A stretch of 10,806 nt of DNA, taken from contig JABEUK010000031.1 of the NCBI GenBank assembly GCA_013044425.1, positions 1 to 10,806 on the forward strand, written 5' to 3'. Below, piece after piece: positions 2,318-10,716 of the stretch; position 1 is the first letter of the stretch, and every line of letters begins with the position of its first letter. The notes under the pieces are model-generated. The model worked only from the letters and a program-made list of their open reading frames with translations, did not search any database and was not told the DNA's origin. Source of the DNA: Thermoplasmata archaeon (GTDB lineage: Archaea > Thermoplasmatota > Thermoplasmata > Lutacidiplasmatales > UBA184). Position numbers and translations under genes: made by a program.

Positions 2318-2791
2318 ATGTCGGATGTGAGGACGGTCGCCCCAGCCACCCCGGTGCCCGATTCCCTGCCCAGGCCCATCCGCGACATCGTCGTAGGCTA
2401 CGATGGCTCGGATGCCTCCGCCCGGGCCTGTTCGATTGCCATCCGGATCGCGGGACTCCTCGGAGCGCGGGTCCACCTCGTGCACGCCGGGGAGCTTCGA
2501 CCCGAGATCGTGGAACCGAGGACGGAGGAGGAGATCGCGTCGGTCGACCGCAGCGTGGCGGCCGCCATGGACCTCGTCAAATCCTACTCCGAGCGATTGG
2601 GCGTTCCCCTGCGGATCATTTCGAGGGAGGACTCCCCGGCGACCGCGATTCTCGCAGTCCAGGAGGAGGTCGACGCCGACCTGATCCTGGTCGGGACTCG
2701 CGGCCTGCATGCGGCCCCGAAGCTCTTCCTCGGTTCGGTCTCTACCGAAGTCCTCGCGCGTTCGCGCGTTCCAGTGACGATTGTCCCGTAA
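2318..2791 (+). CDS. universal stress protein, UspA family (ATP-binding type)
   Basis: 157-residue single-domain UspA-family protein with a Rossmann-like alpha/beta fold. After a 20-residue leader the first strand reads RDIVVGYDGSDAS (22-34), with the nucleotide-contacting D29. The C-terminal signature G-x2-G-x9-G-S is complete at G126, G129, G139 and S140, which marks the ATP-binding subgroup, and the last strand is VPVTIVP (151-157). Such proteins act in the cytosol in stress or energy-state signalling; the specific role here is unknown. The gene ends 24 bp from the stop of the oppositely oriented complex operon, with no T-rich terminator in between. Confidence 0.92.
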   Translation: MSDVRTVAPATPVPDSLPRPIRDIVVGYDGSDASARACSIAIRIAGLLGARVHLVHAGELRPEIVEPRTEEEIASVDRSVAAAMDLVKSYSERLGVPLRIISREDSPATAILAVQEEVDADLILVGTRGLHAAPKLFLGSVSTEVLARSRVPVTIVP

Positions 2792-2815: not shown

Positions 2816-4822
2816 TCAGAAGAAGAGCGCCGTGTAGATGATCACGAGGAGTACGACCACGAGAATGTACGCGAGGTAGCGGCCGATCCGGCCGGGCATG
2901 ACCGCGCGCTTGAGCCCCTCCGCGAACCAGAGCCCGAACCGCGCCAGGCTGTCGTAGAACACCTTGAAGACGTCTAGGACCTCGAGCTCCACGTTGTACG
3001 CTTCGGGCGTCGCGATCTCGGCGGAGACGGCCGGTCCAGCGCGTTGTCGGATCTCGCGGGTCCCGAGCAGGCCGCGCAGCATGATGCGCATGCCGGTGCT
3101 GTAGCCAAAGGAAGTGTACGTCGCTTCGATCGAGTTCGGGGGGCGTCCCGACGCCCAGACGGGCGTGCGGCGGGCCTTGGGCGATCCGCCGAGCGCGAAG
3201 TACGCGAGCGCCGGCACGAGTCCCGCGACGAGGGCGATGGCGAGCGCCGGCGGGGAAACGATCCCGAATGGGCTCCCCGAGACGATCGACCAGCCGTTCG
3301 GAATCGCGAGGAGCCCCGAGACCGGCGCTGTCAGCGAATAGCCGGCCAGCGTCGACGCCGCTGGGGTCAGGAACTGTAGGATCCACGGAGAGAGCACGCC
3401 GAGTCCGACGATGACGGCGGCCAGCGCCGCCATCGGCGCCCCGAGACCCCATCGACGCGGAGCTCGATCGGTCACGACCGGCTTCCACAGGACGGAGAAC
3501 CCTAGGAACTTGACCATCGCGACCACGACCAAGCCCGCGGCGAGGGCCACCGCAGCCCCGGCGAGCAGCCCGAGGAACTGGAGCGCGGGGACGGAGAAGC
3601 GGAAGGATTGGAACAACGCTTCCAAGATCATCCACTCACTGACGAACCCCGCGAGCGGAGGGCCGGCCGCGAGGCTCAGGGTCGCAACGAGGATCGCGCC
3701 GCTCGCGGCGGCGTTCCCGGCTTTCGGCCGACCGCGCACGCGGTTGAGATCGACCGTGCCCGTGGATCGCTCGATGTACCCGGCGCACAGGAAGAGCGTG
3801 GCCTTTGTAATCGCATGCGCGAGGGCCTGGAAGAACGCCGCGAAGAGCGCGAAGGTGAACAGGGTCGGCAGGTCCTCCACCCGGGCGATGAGCGCGATCC
3901 CAAGCGCGACCAAGATCAGGCCGTTGTTCTCGATGGTGCTGTAGGCGGGCAGGCCCTTCGCGTGCTCGCTGACCGCCGCGAACAGCGCGCCGAGAAGCGC
4001 CGAGACGGCTCCGATGATGAGAAGGAGCCCGCCCCACCAGGAGGGCCCCTCGGGGAGCAGCGTGAGCATGCGGAACAGCCCGTACACTCCGGCCAGAGTC
4101 AGCGTCGCGCTGAGCACGGCGGAAGCGTTGGAGGGCGCGGAGGAGTGCGCGATCGGCAGCCATTCGCTCATGTGGAACGGTGCGATCCCCATCTTCAATC
4201 CGAACCCGAGCAATGCCGCCACGAAGACCAGGGAAGTGAGGGGTCCGGCGATCGAGGTGGCCATCATCCCGAAGCTCCCCGAGACCGCGTAGAACGCGGC
4301 GATCGCCACCGCGATCAGCAGACTGCTCGCTTCCCCGAATGCGAGGAAGACGAAGGCCGCGGAGAAGATCCGGTTCGGTCGACCTGTCGCTTCCAGGATC
4401 ATCCAGTACGAGGCAAGCGTCATCGCCTCCCACCCGGCGAGGAAGACGAGGAAGTTCGTGGAGGTGAGCACGATGGCGATCGACCCCAGGGTCAGGGAGT
4501 AGGCCACCGCGAGCCTCGAGCTAGAGTGTTGATCGTAGTCCAGGGAGAAGGCCGAGGTGCCGATCCAGACGATTCCCGCCGTCAACGCAAAGAACGCCGA
4601 GAGACCGTCCAGGCGAATCGACTCGGGCTCTCCGATCACTCCCGACCAGGAGATCGCCGTGACGGGCCCACCGGTGAGCACGAGGATCGCGGCCACGACG
4701 AGGAGCCCGCTCGCGACGAGCGTAGCGGCGTACCCCACCCGGCGGTGGATCAGCGACAATGGGGCGCCCGCGAACAGACCGACGAGCGCCGTGAGCACCA
4801 AGACGCCCGCGGCGTACGTCAT
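2816..4822 (-). CDS. hyfB: HyfB-like proton-antiporter subunit of an energy-converting complex
   Basis: 668-residue polytopic membrane protein of the Mrp/NuoL-type antiporter family, closest in layout to HyfB/HycC of group 4 hydrogenases. It would form one ion-translocating channel of the membrane arm. Channel residues are in place: E132 in GWEAMTLASYW (TM5), K210 in GFGLKMGIAPFHMSEW (TM7), K340 in HAITKATLF, and K438 in VAMVKFLGF (TM12). The C-terminal extension after about residue 550 has the HyfB-style TPVWASG segment (the usual WxCG cysteine is Ser here), an amphipathic stretch and a final helix (about 650-668). The ATG overlaps the small-subunit stop by 4 bp (ATGA), with GGAGGTGACCG directly before it, so the two are translationally coupled. 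It is the last gene of the operon. In E. coli-type clusters hyfB comes early. Confidence 0.9.
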   Translation of the reverse strand: MTYAAGVLVLTALVGLFAGAPLSLIHRRVGYAATLVASGLLVVAAILVLTGGPVTAISWSGVIGEPESIRLDGLSAFFALTAGIVWIGTSAFSLDYDQHSSSRLAVAYSLTLGSIAIVLTSTNFLVFLAGWEAMTLASYWMILEATGRPNRIFSAAFVFLAFGEASSLLIAVAIAAFYAVSGSFGMMATSIAGPLTSLVFVAALLGFGLKMGIAPFHMSEWLPIAHSSAPSNASAVLSATLTLAGVYGLFRMLTLLPEGPSWWGGLLLIIGAVSALLGALFAAVSEHAKGLPAYSTIENNGLILVALGIALIARVEDLPTLFTFALFAAFFQALAHAITKATLFLCAGYIERSTGTVDLNRVRGRPKAGNAAASGAILVATLSLAAGPPLAGFVSEWMILEALFQSFRFSVPALQFLGLLAGAAVALAAGLVVVAMVKFLGFSVLWKPVVTDRAPRRWGLGAPMAALAAVIVGLGVLSPWILQFLTPAASTLAGYSLTAPVSGLLAIPNGWSIVSGSPFGIVSPPALAIALVAGLVPALAYFALGGSPKARRTPVWASGRPPNSIEATYTSFGYSTGMRIMLRGLLGTREIRQRAGPAVSAEIATPEAYNVELEVLDVFKVFYDSLARFGLWFAEGLKRAVMPGRIGRYLAYILVVVLLVIIYTALFF

Positions 4823-5580
4823 CGGTCACCTCCGTTCCGGACCCGGTTCCGGCCCGCGAGGCGAAGGATCCCATCCAGCACGGCCAACGGGGGAGGGGGG
4901 CAACCGCTCACGTAGAGATCGACGGGCACGATCGTGCGGACCGGCACTTCCAACCCCGGGTTCCCCTCGAAGATGCCTCCATCGATCGCGCAGGCGCCCA
5001 CCGCGAGGACCGCCTTCGGAGCGGGCATGGCGTCGTACGTACGCCTCAGCGGTTCGACCAAAGGCTCGGTCGGCACGCCGACCACGGCCAGCACGTCCGC
5101 GTGCCGCGGGGAGTTCGTGAAGGAGATGCCGAGACGCGCCGCATCGTAGTACGGGTTCGCCAGCGCCAAGACCTCGAGGTTGCAGGCATTGCAACTGCCG
5201 ACGTCCATGAGGAAGACATGGATCGATCGCCCGATCGGCGCGAGCGGCGCGGGCTCGACCCGGAGGGCGGGGGGCGTTCCGGAGATCCAGATCAGTCCCT
5301 CTCGGGCCGCGTTCCCGGATTCGACGGCGCCGCCCGCGCCGAATCCCACGCGGAAGCACCGCGTGCAGCGGATACATTGGCCCTGGTCCACACCGGCCGG
5401 CGTGATCGCGCCCGTCGGGCATAGGGGCTCGGCGATCGCGGCGGCCGAGCGGAAGGCGGCGGCGTCCTCTATCCCCACGGGGCAGCCGGTCGGAGGAATC
5501 TCCTCCCCAGTCGGAGCGCCCACCGGATAGGTCGTGGTGACGATCCCCTTCTTCCACGCGCGTGAGATCCAACTGGGCAT
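4819..5580 (-). CDS. NuoB/HyfI-like small subunit fused to an N-terminal ferredoxin-like domain
   Basis: 253-residue Fe-S protein of the peripheral arm. Residues 118-243 are a NuoB/[NiFe]-hydrogenase small-subunit domain with all four proximal (N2-type) cluster ligands: C130 and C133 in DVGSCNACNLE, C197 in GACAIDGG, and C227 in SGCPPPP. The CxxC spacing is the hydrogenase form; complex I NuoB has adjacent cysteines. Residues about 33-80 form half of a HyfH/NuoI-type ferredoxin: C54-P (CPTGAI) and C69-x2-C72-x2-C75 can hold one [4Fe-4S] cluster, while the second cluster's set is lost apart from a lone C33. The fusion replaces a separate HyfH subunit. The start is ATG with GAGGA 4 nt upstream, 6 bp after the large-subunit stop. 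It should relay electrons between a soluble donor or acceptor and the large subunit. Confidence 0.88.
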   Translation of the reverse strand: MPSWISRAWKKGIVTTTYPVGAPTGEEIPPTGCPVGIEDAAAFRSAAAIAEPLCPTGAITPAGVDQGQCIRCTRCFRVGFGAGGAVESGNAAREGLIWISGTPPALRVEPAPLAPIGRSIHVFLMDVGSCNACNLEVLALANPYYDAARLGISFTNSPRHADVLAVVGVPTEPLVEPLRRTYDAMPAPKAVLAVGACAIDGGIFEGNPGLEVPVRTIVPVDLYVSGCPPPPLAVLDGILRLAGRNRVRNGGDR

Positions 5581-5586
5581 CGATCC

Positions 5587-6900
5587 TCATCCATCCGTAT
5601 CGGCGAATACGAGCCCGAAGGACTCGAGCGCAAAGTGGAAGTCCGTGAACACGCCGCCACGCATGCCGAGGGCGAACAACGGCCAGTTCGCTTGGCTCGG
5701 TGTGCGCACGCCGACCGAGCGCACACGGCCGTCAGAGATCCGCACGTCGTAGACCAGATCGCCGCTCGGGGCTTCCAGGCGAGCGATTCCCCGGCCGGGC
5801 TCGACCGGGGCCGGGGGCGCGGACTCCCCACCGCGCATGCTCGACCAGCGATCTAGGATCTGATCCAGGAGGAGCAGGCTCGATCGAACCTCCTCTTGAC
5901 GGACCAGCACTCGGGCGAGCGCGTCGCCCGACCCCTCCTGCGCGAGGGGCACGAACAGGTCGGTGTAGGGGGGCGTCGGCGCCCGGAGGCGGTCGTCCCA
6001 CGCCACGCCCGACGCACGGAGCGTAGGACCGACGGCGCCCCAGCGAAGGGCGTCGGCGCGCGAGACCGTCGCGGTCGACTGGATCCGGTCGATGAACGTT
6101 CGCGAGCTCAAGAAGAGCTCCCAGAGCGACGCGAACTCGCGGTCGAGCTCCCGTAACCGGCTGCCGAGCGCTCGGCGGTCGTCCGGCCCGAGTCGACGCA
6201 GCGGGTTTTCCGAAGCGAGCGCGCCGAAGGCCCAGCGGTGACCGAAGGTGCGAGCGGTGAGGCGGAGCGACTCCTCCGCCAGCGCATGGGCCTGGGCGAC
6301 CCCGACGTTCTGGGACGCCGCCTCCGCGACGCGGGCGATCAGATGGAGGTGATTGTACACGCGCTGGAGCTCCTGGGCGAGCGCGCGCGTCCACAACTCT
6401 GACTCGGGAACCCCGATCCCCTCCGCGATCTCGACCGCTCGGAGGAACGCGGCCCCGTGCGACGCGGAGAAGTTGCCCGCGAAGCGCTCGACCCGCAACA
6501 ACGCGTCCGGCACGGATCGCCCGACCAGGGCTGCAGCCACTCCCCGATGCTTGTACCCGACCTCGGGAACGATCTCGAGCACGCGCTCGCCGTACGTACG
6601 GAGATCGAACGCCCCGGACTCCGGGACGCCCATCGTCACGGGACCGTATGGAAAGGTGAAGACCCCGTATCCTTCGACCGATTCGCCAACAGGAATGCGG
6701 TGGGGATGGCCCTCGGTGGTCTGCCAAAGCTCGAGGATACCGATCTCCTCGACCGTCAACTGGGCCGGTCGCTCGAGCAACGTCTCCCGGCTCTCGTAGT
6801 CCGTGCGGAGCGCAAGGGAGCGATCCGCATCGACGTAGGTGAGCGAGCGCTCGCGCGCCCTCGGCGGAGGGTCCCCGACCTCGGGAAGAGGGGCGCTCAC
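5587..6900 (-). CDS. HyfG/NuoD-like large subunit lacking all NiFe ligands (Ehr-type)
   Basis: 437-residue homologue of the hydrogenase large subunit/NuoD. The fold is recognisable from GERVLEIVPEVGYKHRG (104-120), the L1 region RFAGNFSASHGAAF (139-152), AQELQRVYNHLHLIA (175-189) and the C-terminal FHFALESFG (421-429). In the RxCGxCxxxH motif the cysteines are A141 and F144 (H148 kept). In the C-terminal DPCxxC the positions are G429, L430, V431 and D434, and the chain ends three residues later, so there is no maturation peptide. The protein has no cysteine at all, so it cannot bind a NiFe site. The complex I quinone Tyr position is G142 and its His position is T89. No NuoC domain precedes it. 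The GTG start overlaps the HyfF stop by 3-4 bp (GTGA) with GGAGG 6 nt before it. The closest known type is the Ehr complexes; the substrate is unknown. Confidence 0.88.
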   Translation of the reverse strand: MSAPLPEVGDPPPRARERSLTYVDADRSLALRTDYESRETLLERPAQLTVEEIGILELWQTTEGHPHRIPVGESVEGYGVFTFPYGPVTMGVPESGAFDLRTYGERVLEIVPEVGYKHRGVAAALVGRSVPDALLRVERFAGNFSASHGAAFLRAVEIAEGIGVPESELWTRALAQELQRVYNHLHLIARVAEAASQNVGVAQAHALAEESLRLTARTFGHRWAFGALASENPLRRLGPDDRRALGSRLRELDREFASLWELFLSSRTFIDRIQSTATVSRADALRWGAVGPTLRASGVAWDDRLRAPTPPYTDLFVPLAQEGSGDALARVLVRQEEVRSSLLLLDQILDRWSSMRGGESAPPAPVEPGRGIARLEAPSGDLVYDVRISDGRVRSVGVRTPSQANWPLFALGMRGGVFTDFHFALESFGLVFADTDG

Positions 6901-8339
6901 GGCACGCCTCCACCGAGCAGGCTTGCCGCGGAATGGATCGTCGGGGCGAGATACGGGATCGCGATGATCCCGAGCAGGAGCGCCACGCTGACGTTGATGA
7001 GAGGGATCACGACCGCCCGGGGGCTCTCCGGCGGTCCGGCCGTATCGGAGCCCCGGCCGGGATCTGCGCCGAACACCATCCGCCCGATCTGGGCATTCAT
7101 CCCTAGGAACGAGAGGAGGATCGCCACAACGCAGGCGATGGCGACCCACCAGGCCCCGACGACGATCGCCCCAGCGACGATCAGGAGCTCGCCGACGAAC
7201 GTGCCGAACGGAGGGGTTCCGGTGACGGCGATCGCGGAGAGCACCCAGGTGGCACCGGTCCAGGGTAGGTCCGTCCGAAGACCCCGAACGTCCTCGATGC
7301 GGGTGGTCCCGGTCCTCCTCAGCACGTTCCCGGCGCAATAGAACGCGGCGGATTTCGCGAAGGCGTGGGCCACCACGAGGATCAGCGCGCCATAGAGCGC
7401 GATGCCACCGAGACCGACACCGACGACCGCGAGGCCCATGACCTCCATGCTGGAGTACGCGAGAAGCCGCTTGTACGAGCGCTGACGTTGCATCAGGAAC
7501 GCGGCGACCAGGGCCGTGGCAACCCCGAAAACGATGACGAGGTCGGAGAGAGCGGCAGGAACGGGGCTCGCCACGACGGCGTAGACACGCAGGAACGCGT
7601 AGAGCGCGGTTGGCAGCAAGACCCCGGAGAACATCGCGGAAACGGGCGAGGGGGCCTCGGAGTGAGCGTCCGGCAGCCAGGTGTGCATCGGGAAGAGACC
7701 GATCTTCGTGCCGTACCCGACGAGAGCGAGGGTCACCGCCATCGCGAGCGGCAGGCTCAGGACCATAGGGTGGGCCGCGAGCGCAAAGCCGTTGAGGGAC
7801 CCGGTAGCCTCGTACAGCAGGAGCAGGGCGAAGAGCGCAATCGTCAGACCGGCCGACGCGATCAGCGTGTACCGCCAGGCGGCCTCGACGCTCGTCGGTC
7901 TACGCTCGAGAACGATGAGGAGCGCGCTCGCCACCGTCGTGCCCTCGAGACCGATCCACATCAGTCCGAGGTCCGTGACCGACAGCGTCAGGAGCATCGC
8001 GAACGCGAACGCCCCGAGAAGCGCGTAGTAGCGCTGCGGGGTCAGGAACGGACGATCGATCGACCGGAGGTATCCGCGCGAGTACCACGTCGAGGCGGCG
8101 TAGATGGCGGCGACCAGGAACAGAAAGAGATCGCTCAGCGCATCGAGCCCGATGTACGCGCCCCAGCTTCCCTGGGCCCGAAGCCCGAGCAACGCGGCGG
8201 CGGCCGCTAGGGTCAGGAGGGCCGTTATCCGTGCGATGAGCTCGCTGGCCCGCGCCCCCGCGACGACGGCGAGAAGCGCCCCGGTGACCGGGGCCAGGAG
8301 CACGATGAGCAGCCACAGAAGCGGATCGGAGAGGTTCAT
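6897..8339 (-). CDS. hyfF: HyfF-like proton-antiporter subunit
   Basis: 480-residue membrane protein of the NuoL/M/N antiporter family with about 14 helices, similar in size to HyfF. It would be the second ion channel of the membrane arm. Key residues: E132 in MWIGLEGTTVASALLI (TM5), K212 in GYGTKIGLFPMHTWLPDAH (TM7), SYKRLLAYSSMEVMG (288-302) and K329 in VAHAFAKSAAFYCAGN (TM10 region). The equivalent of TM12 around ILLSFLGMNAQIGRMVFG carries no lysine, unlike the HyfB-like partner. The ATG overlaps the HyfE-like stop (ATGA) with GGAGG about 10 nt upstream. Confidence 0.9.
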   Translation of the reverse strand: MNLSDPLLWLLIVLLAPVTGALLAVVAGARASELIARITALLTLAAAAALLGLRAQGSWGAYIGLDALSDLFLFLVAAIYAASTWYSRGYLRSIDRPFLTPQRYYALLGAFAFAMLLTLSVTDLGLMWIGLEGTTVASALLIVLERRPTSVEAAWRYTLIASAGLTIALFALLLLYEATGSLNGFALAAHPMVLSLPLAMAVTLALVGYGTKIGLFPMHTWLPDAHSEAPSPVSAMFSGVLLPTALYAFLRVYAVVASPVPAALSDLVIVFGVATALVAAFLMQRQRSYKRLLAYSSMEVMGLAVVGVGLGGIALYGALILVVAHAFAKSAAFYCAGNVLRRTGTTRIEDVRGLRTDLPWTGATWVLSAIAVTGTPPFGTFVGELLIVAGAIVVGAWWVAIACVVAILLSFLGMNAQIGRMVFGADPGRGSDTAGPPESPRAVVIPLINVSVALLLGIIAIPYLAPTIHSAASLLGGGVP

Positions 8340-8986
8340 CCGCTCAACTCCTCCAGGATCTCGGCCTCGGGAAGACCGGTCACGTCCCTCTGGATGGACA
8401 GGATGATCGCGACGAGCACGACCCCCAGGACGTCGAGGAAGACGACGACCTCAATGAACAGCGGGAATCCCAACGCGAACAGCGCCGCCGCGTAGACGAT
8501 GGCGTTCTCCTCCTCCAGATAGCCGATCACTTGAACGAGCGTGTTGCGACGCGTCGCCAGCATCAGGAGCCCCTCGAGCAACAGCACGAAGGGGAGTGCG
8601 ACTCCCGGCACCGCGGGGAGCGAGGGCGCCAGCGTCTGTTGGAAGACGAACCATCCGACGATCGCCAGGGCGACCGCGGCGAGTGCGTGGCCCGTGACGC
8701 GCTGGGAGGCGTGGATCTCCCGCGCCCTCCACCGGAACGCACGGATCTGCCGCCGGAGGATGTACGGAACGAGGAGCACCCGGACCCCCACCACGAGGAC
8801 CGCAACCGCTCCGAACTCCCAGTTGTCATAGACCCAAGCGAGCCAGCCCAGCAGGGCGGCGAGCAGCAACGACTGCACCGCGATCCCGCTGACGAGCGGG
8901 TCGACAAACGACTCCGACTGCAGGTAGAGCGCCGTCAGGAGGATGCCCAGGCCGACGAGAGCCTCGACGGTCGCGGTCGTGTCCAT
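8336..8986 (-). CDS. hyfE: HyfE-like membrane subunit
   Basis: 216-residue membrane protein with about six to seven helices, near the usual length of HyfE, which combines a NuoK-like part with additional helices and links the antiporters to the NuoH-like subunit. Buried acidic residues expected for proton transfer are visible: E138 in VLLLEGLLML, the cluster IGYLEEENAIV (154-164), and E179 and D185 in PLFIEVVVFLDVL. A basic cytoplasmic loop RRQIRAFRWRARE lies at 78-90. Its ATG follows the upstream TAG stop with no gap at all. Assignment is based on size, topology and operon position as much as on sequence. Confidence 0.87.
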   Translation of the reverse strand: MDTTATVEALVGLGILLTALYLQSESFVDPLVSGIAVQSLLLAALLGWLAWVYDNWEFGAVAVLVVGVRVLLVPYILRRQIRAFRWRAREIHASQRVTGHALAAVALAIVGWFVFQQTLAPSLPAVPGVALPFVLLLEGLLMLATRRNTLVQVIGYLEEENAIVYAAALFALGFPLFIEVVVFLDVLGVVLVAIILSIQRDVTGLPEAEILEELSG

Positions 8987-9949
8987 CTACGCTCCCCCGA
9001 GGACGGCGAACGCGAAGAAGGACAGGATCGCGAGCGAGAAGGAGAGCGCGAGGAAGTCCCGGATCTTGAACAGGCGAACCTTCGCGAGGGAGGCCTCGAG
9101 GAGCACGAGGATCCCGACCAGCACGAGAAGCTTCGCGAAGAGGATCCCGACGTTGGCGGCCGTGGCGAGCGCGCCCGGGTCGGAGAGCATTCCCCATGGG
9201 AACGCGAAGACGTTGACGAACACCGCGAACAGCAGGAACTGCTTCAACCAGGAGTTCCAGCGGAACAGCCCGAGCAGGCGGCCGGAGTGTTCGTAGGTCC
9301 GACCTTCCTCGAGCATGCCGAACTCCATGAGGCCCGAGCTCTCCACCGGAAGCTTTGCGGTCTCCACGAGGAGGAGCAGGAAGAACGCAGCCGTCACGAG
9401 CAGGTGCGTGGGGGAGAGATACAAGGAGGTGGATACCGAGAGCACGTTGTTGGTCACGTACGGGTTGTTCGTTCCGGTGATGACCGCAACGGCGAAGAAC
9501 ACGACGATGAGGGTCGGTTCGGCCAGCGCGGCAAACGAAACGCTGCGGCTCGCGCCGAGGGCCGTGTAGTTGCTTCCCGCGTCGAGCGCCGCGAGGATCG
9601 TGACGATGCCGGCCAGTGCGAACAAGAGCCCGCCGCCGAGGAAGTCGACGAGCGGGGCGACCGGAAGGGGGTACGGAGTGATGATCGGGACGACGACTGC
9701 GATGACCACGTAGGCGGCGAACCCGACGAACGGAGCGGCGACGAAGAGACGCGATGTATTCGAGGGGAGGAGGGTTTCCTTGCGCAGGAGCTTGCGCAGA
9801 TCGTAGTAGGGCTGAAGAATCGGGGGCCCGCGACGGGACTCCGTCCAGGCTTTCGCGCGGGCGAGGATGCCGGCGAGGAGCGGGGAGAGTATCAGTACGA
9901 CGAGCAGCTGCGCCCCCGTCGCAATCGTGGCGTCCCAGTCCGGCTGCAC
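8987..9949 (-). CDS. hyfC: NuoH/HyfC-like membrane subunit
   Basis: 320-residue membrane protein of the NuoH/HyfC/HycD family, the subunit that docks the hydrophilic arm and channels redox energy to the membrane arm. Conserved elements: RRGPPILQPYYDLRKLLRKE (39-58), the loop ASRSVSFAALAEP (133-145), VETAKLPVESSGLMEFGMLE (195-214) with its acidic residues, and TYEHSGRLLGLFRW (218-231). About eight helices are expected, matching the family. The start is a GTG at complement 9949-9947. GAGGT lies 9 nt upstream and AAGGT closer. It is the first gene of the six-gene operon, and the 320 bp upstream hold no other - strand gene that I trust. Confidence 0.92.
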   Translation of the reverse strand: MQPDWDATIATGAQLLVVLILSPLLAGILARAKAWTESRRGPPILQPYYDLRKLLRKETLLPSNTSRLFVAAPFVGFAAYVVIAVVVPIITPYPLPVAPLVDFLGGGLLFALAGIVTILAALDAGSNYTALGASRSVSFAALAEPTLIVVFFAVAVITGTNNPYVTNNVLSVSTSLYLSPTHLLVTAAFFLLLLVETAKLPVESSGLMEFGMLEEGRTYEHSGRLLGLFRWNSWLKQFLLFAVFVNVFAFPWGMLSDPGALATAANVGILFAKLLVLVGILVLLEASLAKVRLFKIRDFLALSFSLAILSFFAFAVLGGA

Positions 9950-10042
9950 CTACCTTCGACCTCGAGGGTAGGCGTCATCGGCCGCACGCGGTTCGCCCCG
10001 GAGGGCAGGCGGACGCCACCGCCGATGTGGGGTAGGAGGTTG

Positions 10043-10138: not shown

Positions 10139-10198
10139 CGCTAGGGAACCCGTCGGCGGGCGAGAAACACTCAAGACGGGACGTCGTGTTCCCTAGCG
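10139..10198. repeat. long-armed inverted repeat (stem-loop)
   Basis: CGCTAGGGAAC (10139-10149) is exactly complementary to GTTCCCTAGCG (10188-10198). Nested inside, CCGTC (10150-10154) pairs with GACGG (10175-10179), leaving a loop of about 20 nt and an asymmetric bulge. It could be a structured RNA leader, a small ncRNA or a dyad operator for the + strand gene. The loop contains CTCAAGA, which resembles an anticodon loop, but the remaining arms do not fit a tRNA. Confidence 0.6.
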
Positions 10199-10200
10199 GA

Positions 10201-10236
10201 CGGCTGTGGAGTCAGCCGCCGCGCTCCCGCGCGGGA
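10201..10236 (+). repeat. two further small stem-loops before the 10273 gene
   Basis: CGGCTG (10201-10206) pairs with CAGCCG (10213-10218) around a 6-nt loop. TCCCGCGCGGGA (10225-10236) is a perfect 12-bp palindrome. With the larger repeat just upstream they give three stems in a row ending about 27 nt before GGAGG, as a structured 5' leader would. G+C-rich sequence makes short stems common, so only the set is suggestive. Confidence 0.4.
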
Positions 10237-10272
10237 ACCGCCGCCAACGCCGATGACTCCTGGGAGGAAGAG

Positions 10273-10716
10273 ATGGGAACGGCAAGGCGGGGCGGGCTGG
10301 CCCGCGAATCGAGTTCGACCCAGGCGGACGGTCCGCTTTCACCACGGCTGCGGAAAGCGCTCGTACCCTGGATCGACCTGGATGCGGTGGACTGGGAAGC
10401 GTTCGAGGCGTGGCTGTTCACGGTGCTAGCGACGCTCCCCCGCCCCGGCACGACCGAGGCTGGCACGGGTGAAGACCGACTACGAGCGCTCTCCCTGGCG
10501 CTCGTCCAGGCGGCGCAGGAGCGCGCGGTGAGCCACTTTCAGGCGGCGGAATATTTCCGCGACAATCAGATGCTCGCCCGGCGGGTCAAGGCCCTCGAGG
10601 CGCTGCTGAGGGCGGCGCAGAAACGAGGCTTCGGGGGCCCAGGGCCCTCCGAGGAGACCCTCGAGAGCCGCGCCGCCGCCCGGTACCTGCCTCGCGGGAA
10701 GGAAGCCGATCGGTAG
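10273..10716 (+). CDS. small uncharacterised protein
   Basis: 147 residues; I do not recognise a family. I chose the ATG at 10273 because GGAGG lies 6 nt upstream. The frame is open back to a GTG at 10186, but that start lies in the inverted-repeat arm and has no good ribosome-binding site. The N-terminal 25 residues are polar, followed by WIDLDAVDWEAFEAWLF (33-49), then a Gly/Thr linker and a long charged helix (about 68-117, with RALSLALVQAAQERAVSHF and MLARRVKALEALLRAAQKR) that may form a coiled coil. There is no membrane helix, signal peptide or cysteine, so it is probably a soluble cytosolic protein. It is divergent from the complex operon, so a regulatory or accessory link is possible but unproven. 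Confidence 0.7.
   Translation: MGTARRGGLARESSSTQADGPLSPRLRKALVPWIDLDAVDWEAFEAWLFTVLATLPRPGTTEAGTGEDRLRALSLALVQAAQERAVSHFQAAEYFRDNQMLARRVKALEALLRAAQKRGFGGPGPSEETLESRAAARYLPRGKEADR

Follow-up and report, generated by a model that had tools for sequence, protein, structure and literature searches.

The window, by which we mean the whole 10,806-nt stretch of DNA analysed here, carries on its minus strand a six-gene operon in the order hyfC-hyfE-hyfF-EhrL-EhrS-hyfB, with genes that mostly abut or overlap. Ahead of hyfC lies a fluoride riboswitch aptamer, which the earlier note on this DNA missed and which is the most informative feature of the locus. The features are as follows.

2318..2791, plus strand: universal stress protein gene (PF00582), convergent with the operon; by synteny, such a gene adjoins many Ehr operons
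2816..4822, minus strand: hyfB-like antiporter-type membrane subunit (PF00361; NF005046 under its cut-off)
4819..5580, minus strand: EhrS, a NuoB/HyfI-like subunit with a fused N-terminal ferredoxin-like part (PF01058)
5587..6900, minus strand: EhrL, a NuoD/HyfG-like large subunit, 437 amino acids with zero cysteines in the translation
5590..5616, minus strand: C-terminal motif of EhrL, G429 to G437, with V431 and D434 at the cysteine positions
6457..6486, minus strand: L1 motif of EhrL, R139 to H148, with A141 and F144 at the cysteine positions
6619..6621, minus strand: codon of E94 of EhrL, aligned with Glu21 of Pyrococcus furiosus Mbh
6897..8339, minus strand: hyfF-like antiporter-type membrane subunit (profile match; channel residues conserved)
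8336..8986, minus strand: hyfE-like membrane subunit (synteny; NF008556 under its cut-off)
8987..9949, minus strand: hyfC/NuoH-like membrane subunit, whose gene opens the operon (PF00146; synteny)
9947..9974, minus strand: predicted switching stem, CGCCTACC / GGTAGGTG (0.063 of shuffles as good in the window)
9962..10032, minus strand: fluoride riboswitch aptamer RF01734 (cmscan, 34.3 bits against a gathering threshold of 34)
10193..10269, plus strand: second, divergent RF01734 match (21.8 bits, below gathering; E 6.2e-4 genome-wide)
10273..10716, plus strand: small protein without a Pfam match, directly behind the second RF01734 match

EhrL begins at a GTG codon and overlaps the stop of hyfF. 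Its L1 motif reads R139-F-A141-G-N-F144-S-A-S-H148 and its C terminus S427-F-G-L-V431-F-A-D434-T-D-G, and in the alignment A141, F144, V431 and D434 occupy the four NiFe-ligand cysteine columns. The earlier note had described a 437-residue protein free of cysteine with these four residues at the ligand sites, and translation and alignment agree with it. A frameshift or misassembly hiding real CxxC motifs, a doubt that the note itself raised, was rejected and is excluded by the open frame and by the 65 homologues that align with it. Pfam assigns EhrL to Complex1_49kDa (E 3.9e-26), with NiFeSe_Hases under its cut-off.

The absence of the cysteines extends to the homologues. In a first alignment of 66 rows (the window and 65 homologues, three rows being partial), only one row, L047, has a single cysteine at the NiFe sites. 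A second alignment comprised 69 distinct Ehr rows, 35 CxxC group-4 rows and 21 Nuo/Fpo-like rows; here two Ehr rows (L047 and L102, from a Mycobacterium plasmid) have one NiFe-site cysteine and none has more, the full set of four is present in 35/35 group-4 rows, and the Nuo/Fpo-like rows have all four in 0/21 and two in 13/21. Column 434 holds E or D in all 21 Nuo rows and in 56 of the 69 Ehr rows. Invariant EhrL residues are present across 61 sequences.

The locus almost certainly encodes an Ehr complex: the large subunit is without the four cysteines, the operon is of HyfBCEFGI-like composition and the protein belongs to a clade of its own, all of which upholds the Ehr-type reading of the earlier note. 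We built a quick tree of 78 thinned rows (38 Ehr, 25 CxxC hydrogenase and 15 Nuo/Fpo-like) and a careful tree of 73 rows from which the five longest had been removed; both are unrooted, include the ligand columns and sample neither Geobacter nor Nitrospira Ehr. In both, the Ehr and the Nuo/Fpo sequences each form one side of a top-support branch, the Ehr side at 100/100. E-plasma (L083), which we take to be a member of the published AMD plasmas group, falls in the Ehr clade. A firm position of EhrL inside active hydrogenases or complex I, the other outcome that the earlier note had set against its own reading, was not found; neither tree places it there. A tree constrained to keep Ehr and Nuo on one side is 13.8 log units worse (p-AU 0.134) and is not rejected, so that two separate losses are favoured but not proven. 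Of the note's phrase that the protein has lost every NiFe cysteine, the absence stands; the polarity in the word 'lost' goes beyond proof because the tree is unrooted.

Ehr shares features with both neighbouring families. Like NuoD/Nqo4 of complex I and the Fpo-like proteins, it has an incomplete NiFe site with E or D at the last cysteine position. Unlike complex I, its operon is without a NuoEFG-type input module, and it has a hydrogenase-type Glu and a separate clade. The Q-site His and Tyr (columns 93 and 142), which in complex I contact quinone as His38 and Tyr87 of Nqo4, are not kept in the Ehr rows. EhrL scores 107.5 bits against 459.35 for TIGR01962 and 85.4 against 600 for NF040602, a cut-off that every genome sampled from the phylum likewise fails to reach. 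With Escherichia coli FHL/hydrogenase 4 and P. furiosus Mbh, Ehr has the fold, the subunit set and the proton-path Glu in common, and often the His at H148 (45/69 Ehr rows). Unlike these enzymes, it is without the NiFe ligands of RxCGxCxxxH and DPCxxC, and the APRGE Arg is absent in 58/69 rows (kept in 11/69 Ehr rows against 35/35 hydrogenases); the GPxHP His is kept in just 3/69. HypD, by profile search, was not found in the host genome G000 (83% complete) nor in 36 of the 37 genus genomes, the exception being G033, in a search whose control detected it in 4 of 14 named genomes. An active NiFe hydrogenase was rejected on these four grounds: cysteines, APRGE Arg, GPxHP His and HypD.

The AlphaFold2 model of EhrL has a mean pLDDT of 92.5 and a pTM of 0.92, with a low-confidence spot at residues 89-91 of the model (90-92 of the protein), in the stretch aligned with the Mbh beta1-beta2 loop. 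Foldseek returned the E. coli FHL subunit 7z0s_E as its top match (TM 0.76, query), with the complex I 49-kDa subunits ranking behind this large subunit. By residue count on the alignment, E94 and H148 correspond to Glu21 and His75 of P. furiosus Mbh, which the available part of PMC11228991 describes as two proton routes into the NiFe site. The E94 column holds E in 68/69 Ehr and 35/35 hydrogenase rows and G in 21/21 Nuo rows. Because E94 and H148 are conserved while the NiFe ligands are absent, proton delivery to the pocket seems to be retained although the metal is gone. Residues typical of Ehr in the alignment include R213, H221 and D271.

The partner subunits retain electron-transfer and channel residues. 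In EhrS, the Cys set C54, C69, C72 and C75, from whose pattern alone the ferredoxin-like part is assigned (Pfam makes no call there), is kept in 57-59 of 64 rows, and the proximal-cluster ligands C130, C133, C197 and C227 are kept in 61-63. Row alignments show the channel Lys, Glu and His of HyfF and HyfB to be conserved. The order hyfC-E-F-EhrL-EhrS-hyfB is repeated in Thermoplasmata, Nitrososphaerales and Actinomycetota. The ferredoxin-like part and the gene order are not universal because Rhizobium and Azospirillum deviate, with short small subunits (534 and 540 bp) and hyfB in first place. A partner oxidoreductase encoded within the operon was rejected, no constant extra redox partner being seen among the Ehr operons compared for synteny, a survey in which ORF calling overlooked individual subunits at many loci of high GC content. 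L079 and L082 share a record prefix, as do L081 and L084, which points to two Ehr operons in each of these assemblies; within the pairs RF01734 was found only before L079 and L084.

The host genome G000 comprises 1.42 Mb in 217 contigs, and the nearest named relative, at 81% identity, is a Thermoplasmata MAG. EhrL (E < 1e-100) occurs in 20/37 genomes of the genus, and four further relatives at 37-40% identity (G038, G047, G051 and G058; E < 1e-50) bring the Ehr-bearing total to 24 of 61 genomes of the genus and its relatives, a sample in which numerous MAGs are incomplete and 30 fetched loci were read individually. The loci from those four further genomes (L023-L026) are likewise without NiFe ligands. 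A separate NuoD-like gene is present in G000 and in most relatives' genomes. Quinone pathway genes were considered as support for a quinone acceptor and set aside: profile searches found MqnA in 0/37 genus genomes and MenD over its cut-off in 0/61, and a quinone acceptor is weakened because neither was found and the Q-site contacts are not kept. A COX1-type oxidase scores over cut-off in 33/37 genus genomes, which makes the source or kind of quinone in the genus puzzling.

The aptamer at the head of the operon ends 12 nt ahead of the hyfC GTG, with E 2.1e-5 in 140 kb, 6.6e-8 on 451 bases and 4.8e-8 genome-wide. At E <= 0.001 under strict filters, it and the divergent second match are the only RF01734 matches in G000, both before the operon. 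The small protein at 10273-10716 has an LRPWIDxxEVGxxGFxxWL-like motif; three of its relatives likewise lie behind RF01734 matches (L193, L198 and L199), and one relative gave no Pfam match either. Across 12 Ehr-heading switches, pairing holds in 97.6% of cells for the 14 pairs of P1, P2 and the pseudoknot, with compensatory change on both sides in 10/14; 0/500 shuffles and no slid register approach the observed pairing. This covariation test used a sequence-based alignment of the 12 with pairs written after the Rfam consensus line, the pseudoknot pairs being those we assume, as read off the alignment.

Downstream of the aptamer, the predicted switching stem would cover bases ahead of and within the hyfC GTG and would compete with the aptamer pseudoknot. 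The 3' pseudoknot strand can pair just upstream of the start codon in 26 archaeal loci, where the stem has a mean score of 7.7 versus 5.1 in shuffles and reaches <= 0.05 in 16/26; above 0.05 lie the window (0.063), L033, L037, L044, L057, L058, L077, L078, L079 and L096. The stem is part of the minimum-energy fold computed for this part of the window, which has a whole-fold z of -1.84. In Alicyclobacillus a long hairpin and then T residues follow the aptamer, an arrangement that looks like a terminator. From these sequence signals we consider it very probable that the operon is under fluoride-riboswitch control.

Such switches precede Ehr operons widely. Our count rests on the 56 loci with at least 3.2 kb ahead of EhrL: the window with 29 Thermoplasmata loci that are 48-81% identical, a further 12 from Thermoplasmata, one Nitrososphaerales, six bacterial GTDB loci and seven plasmid stretches. 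A locus was positive if at least one scan (Rfam, R1 or R2, with R1 and R2 at E <= 0.01) gave a match before the operon and on its strand. R1 was modelled on riboswitches not heading Ehr and scores poorly on most insert-bearing archaeal switches; R2 was modelled on 12 Ehr-heading switches and does detect these archaeal ones, and its own seeds, which include 7 of the 30 near loci plus L096, L099 and L102, match by construction. By all scans together, a fluoride riboswitch precedes 44 of the 56 loci, with switch-headed Ehr in Thermoplasmatota, Actinomycetota, Spirochaetota, Pseudomonadota and Bacillota. Positive are the window and its near relatives (30/30), 5/12 other Thermoplasmata (L077, L078, L079, L084 and L096), 0/1 Nitrososphaerales, 5/6 bacterial GTDB loci (L086, L087, L090, L093 and L095) and 4/7 plasmid stretches (L099, L102, L168 and L171), among which L168 and L171 are biased picks because they were fetched via the MutS pair described below; L099-L103 were fetched as Ehr hits. 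No match over threshold was found at the other 12 of the 56: the Nitrososphaerales locus L070, the Thermoplasmata loci L075, L080-L083, L085 and L094, and L092, L100, L101 and L103. Rhizobium, Allomeiothermus and Azospirillum loci are among these misses, and in L075 and L092, both scored as misses, R2 matches below threshold lie where a switch would be expected. Because of these 12 loci, fluoride is not every Ehr's business.

Rfam alone gave 21 positives among 39 readable loci (40 scanned), with contigs assigned to loci by their coordinates. In a genome scan, the contig continues upstream past hyfC in 16 of the 24 Ehr-bearing genomes; in 14 of these RF01734 lies some 3.1 kb ahead of EhrL on the same strand, and in the other two, G013 and G019, the switch was found with R2 (L072 and L071). 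In a control set of 58 loci (NiFe group 4, Nuo/Fpo-like and two E. coli regions), 0 matches appeared at R1 E <= 1 and R2 E <= 0.1; this control is weak because most of its loci have 1.5-kb flanks and operon fronts often fall outside. The distance from switch to hyfC is about 135 nt in L095, 229 nt in L168 and 500 nt in L102, where a NUDIX gene lies between. On the Alicyclobacillus plasmid (L099), EhrL (13632-15128) sits behind its own switch, 145 nt ahead of the annotated start, and tblastn (E 1e-6) found no other Ehr subunit in 29 kb.

Other fluoride-regulon genes accompany these loci. Behind other RF01734 matches in relatives lie genes for crcB, a dynamin-like GTPase, a Na+/H+ exchanger and NUDIX, each identified by Pfam for one member per protein and by similarity for the others. 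In the three genus genomes with crcB, a riboswitch is directly upstream of it. Dynamin-like GTPase genes lie 5 nt behind RF01734 matches in the genus (L174, L177, L178, L183, L186, L187 and L189; one checked by Pfam, the others by BLAST), and in the Burkholderia stretch L168 a dynamin-family gene is annotated beside a MutS pair. Near Ehr, the Alicyclobacillus plasmid carries CrcB, about 2.5 kb from EhrL, and DUF190; the Mycobacterium plasmid carries Usp, NUDIX, His phosphatase, enolase and DUF190; and the Burkholderia plasmid carries NUDIX, enolase, inorganic diphosphatase and DUF190.

Tandem MutS domain V proteins of about 500 amino acids each recur in fluoride-riboswitch neighbourhoods from archaea to proteobacteria. 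Such pairs lie at the following positions.

L063, 5060-7953: MutS pair
L042, 13129-17237: MutS pair
L099, 20648-23694: MutS pair
L102, 1-2359: MutS pair
L168, 13469-16551: MutS pair

By p values that ignore kinship and genome incompleteness, the MutS pair (E < 1e-20) is present in 7/24 Ehr-bearing versus 0/37 other genomes (p 0.0008; within the genus 6/20 with Ehr versus 0/17 without, p 0.017), and CrcB (PF02537) in 0/24 versus 8/37 (p 0.013; within the genus 0/20 versus 3/17, p 0.088). Of six plasmid stretches fetched via the MutS pair, two (L168 and L171) have an Ehr operon nearby and four are without one. The other annotated stretches with fluoride switches carry such regulon genes and no Ehr, and the Tsukamurella stretch has neither Ehr nor fluoride-regulon genes.

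Ehr is treated in PMC4378227, PMC7304191, PMC10284858, PMC7894505, PMC6349859 and PMC10432482, and published accounts, in the portions available, give its function as unknown, which agrees with the earlier note's statement that the reaction is unestablished; PMC7325606 says nothing on Ehr in its available portion. The archaeal setting, which the note thought worth attention, is less special: Thermoplasmatales 'AMD plasmas' without both motifs were reported in 2013 (PMC3750248, section 15), and a 2023 review covers Ehr of ammonia-oxidising archaea, both as far as the accessible text goes. Cysteine-less Ehr, archaeal ones included, is thus already in print, and the fluoride riboswitch at the operon head is the added feature. 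Published Ehr, the 'putative hydrogenase 4' of AMD plasmas included, is in the available text likewise without NiFe motifs and, where described, has group-4-like subunits; unlike there, a fluoride riboswitch heads the operon here, fluoride being absent from those accounts as accessible, and EhrS is fused to a ferredoxin-like part. A search over titles and the beginnings of abstracts, covering 20 of 54 matches in one part and with subscription journals mostly outside its scope, found no link between fluoride and hydrogenase or between fluoride and Ehr. Among the matches listed, 'fluoride riboswitch' and 'hydrogenase' occur together only in an E. coli PFAS transcriptome paper.

From the riboswitch side, the available text of Weinberg 2010 (PMC2864571) places the crcB motif upstream of genes for mutS, for transport and for formate hydrogen lyase. 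A 2024 review (PMC11139923), in its accessible portions, counts formate hydrogen lyase as one of the enzymes most often associated with these riboswitches and reads it as anaerobic fermentation, ranks Na+/H+ antiporters next after exporters among the associated classes, ties fluoride to cytoplasmic acidification and names enolase as fluoride-inhibited. The 'formate hydrogen lyase' loci of this literature and our loci alike have Hyf/Hyc-like genes behind RF01734; unlike that reading, all switch-headed operons in the set compiled here encode an EhrL without a NiFe site.

The best reading of this locus, and a somewhat probable one, is in our view an ion pump that is induced by fluoride, driven by redox energy and used for fluoride resistance. 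For its regulatory part, the predicted control of this Ehr branch by fluoride, the sequence gives good support. Regulation tells when Ehr is made and not what it does, and we infer the pump role from the parts, the regulon and the review's account of fluoride and pH; the fluoride response in vivo, electron donor, acceptor, direction and ion are inferred alike. Intracellular fluoride would close the aptamer pseudoknot, and the closed pseudoknot would occupy a strand otherwise paired with the ribosome-binding region before hyfC; because that strand no longer masks the region, the operon would be translated, as by an ON switch. Low-potential electrons, probably derived from ferredoxin, would enter EhrS through the ferredoxin-like cluster, pass to the proximal cluster and reduce an acceptor, most likely a quinone-like molecule, in the emptied EhrL active-site pocket, where E94 and often H148 are kept. 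The redox energy would move ions via HyfC, HyfF and HyfB, and a proton pump would clear HF-borne protons and restore the voltage and pH gradient used by fluoride exporters. Against the pump reading, the RF01734 match in the window is barely over gathering and the window stem stands at 0.063.

The regulon admits other roles. Ehr might itself remove fluoride, using redox energy to export it, or HF, and standing in for a Fluc/CrcB channel, as suggested by the lack of CrcB in the 24 Ehr-bearing genomes against its presence in 8 of the 37 others (p 0.013), and by a switch that stands before crcB in three genus genomes and before the Ehr operon where Ehr is present. We think this decidedly unlikely: the contrast within the genus is 0/20 versus 3/17 (p 0.088) with many incomplete MAGs, the antiporter subunits retain ordinary proton-channel residues, and CrcB and Ehr can coexist because Alicyclobacillus has both about 2.5 kb apart. 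That an emptied hydrogenase site and an antiporter arm expel fluoride and so replace Fluc in these archaea is doubtful to a slightly greater degree. A ferredoxin:acceptor oxidoreductase that lets electrons escape while glycolysis or other enzymes are inhibited by fluoride, with pumping secondary, would account for the ferredoxin-like Cys set of EhrS (57-59/64 rows), for enolase near Ehr on the Mycobacterium and Burkholderia plasmids and for the inorganic diphosphatase on the latter; four membrane subunits with intact channel residues would be a high cost for a simple electron outlet, which leaves it unlikely.

Three further readings turn on Ehr itself. A general-use, complex I-like Fd:quinone oxidoreductase, with the fluoride switch of some lineages being incidental, fits the 12/56 readable loci with no switch, the E or D at position 434 (21/21 Nuo and 56/69 Ehr rows) and the compatible joint Ehr and Nuo side (p-AU 0.134), yet the switch before Ehr in five phyla and the linked fluoride-regulon genes make it improbable. 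The fold and operon resemble Hyf/Hyc, as a true formate hydrogenlyase or hydrogenase with other metal ligands would predict; no Ehr row has more than one of the four Cys, the APRGE Arg is kept in 11/69 rows against 35/35 in hydrogenases and the GPxHP His in 3/69, and HypD was not found in 36/37 genus genomes, so we give this very little credence. A decaying relic is scarcely credible: in the part available to us, a 2026 paper (PMC13194489) calls the Geobacter Ehr non-functional, and the active site is indeed lost here, but the invariant residues across 61 sequences, the six-gene order across phyla and the compensated riboswitch already speak against a relic for this Ehr branch.

Ehr is found in many phyla, and the fluoride tie of one branch supplies a testable function together with a biochemical inducer. 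The 'formate hydrogen lyase' among fluoride-riboswitch targets may be a misannotation, and because of this the idea of a fluoride-induced formate fermentation needs re-examination. If Ehr is indeed a pump, the means by which cells withstand fluoride include a complex I relative of respiratory type, one that would be most useful in acid habitats, where HF enters cells.
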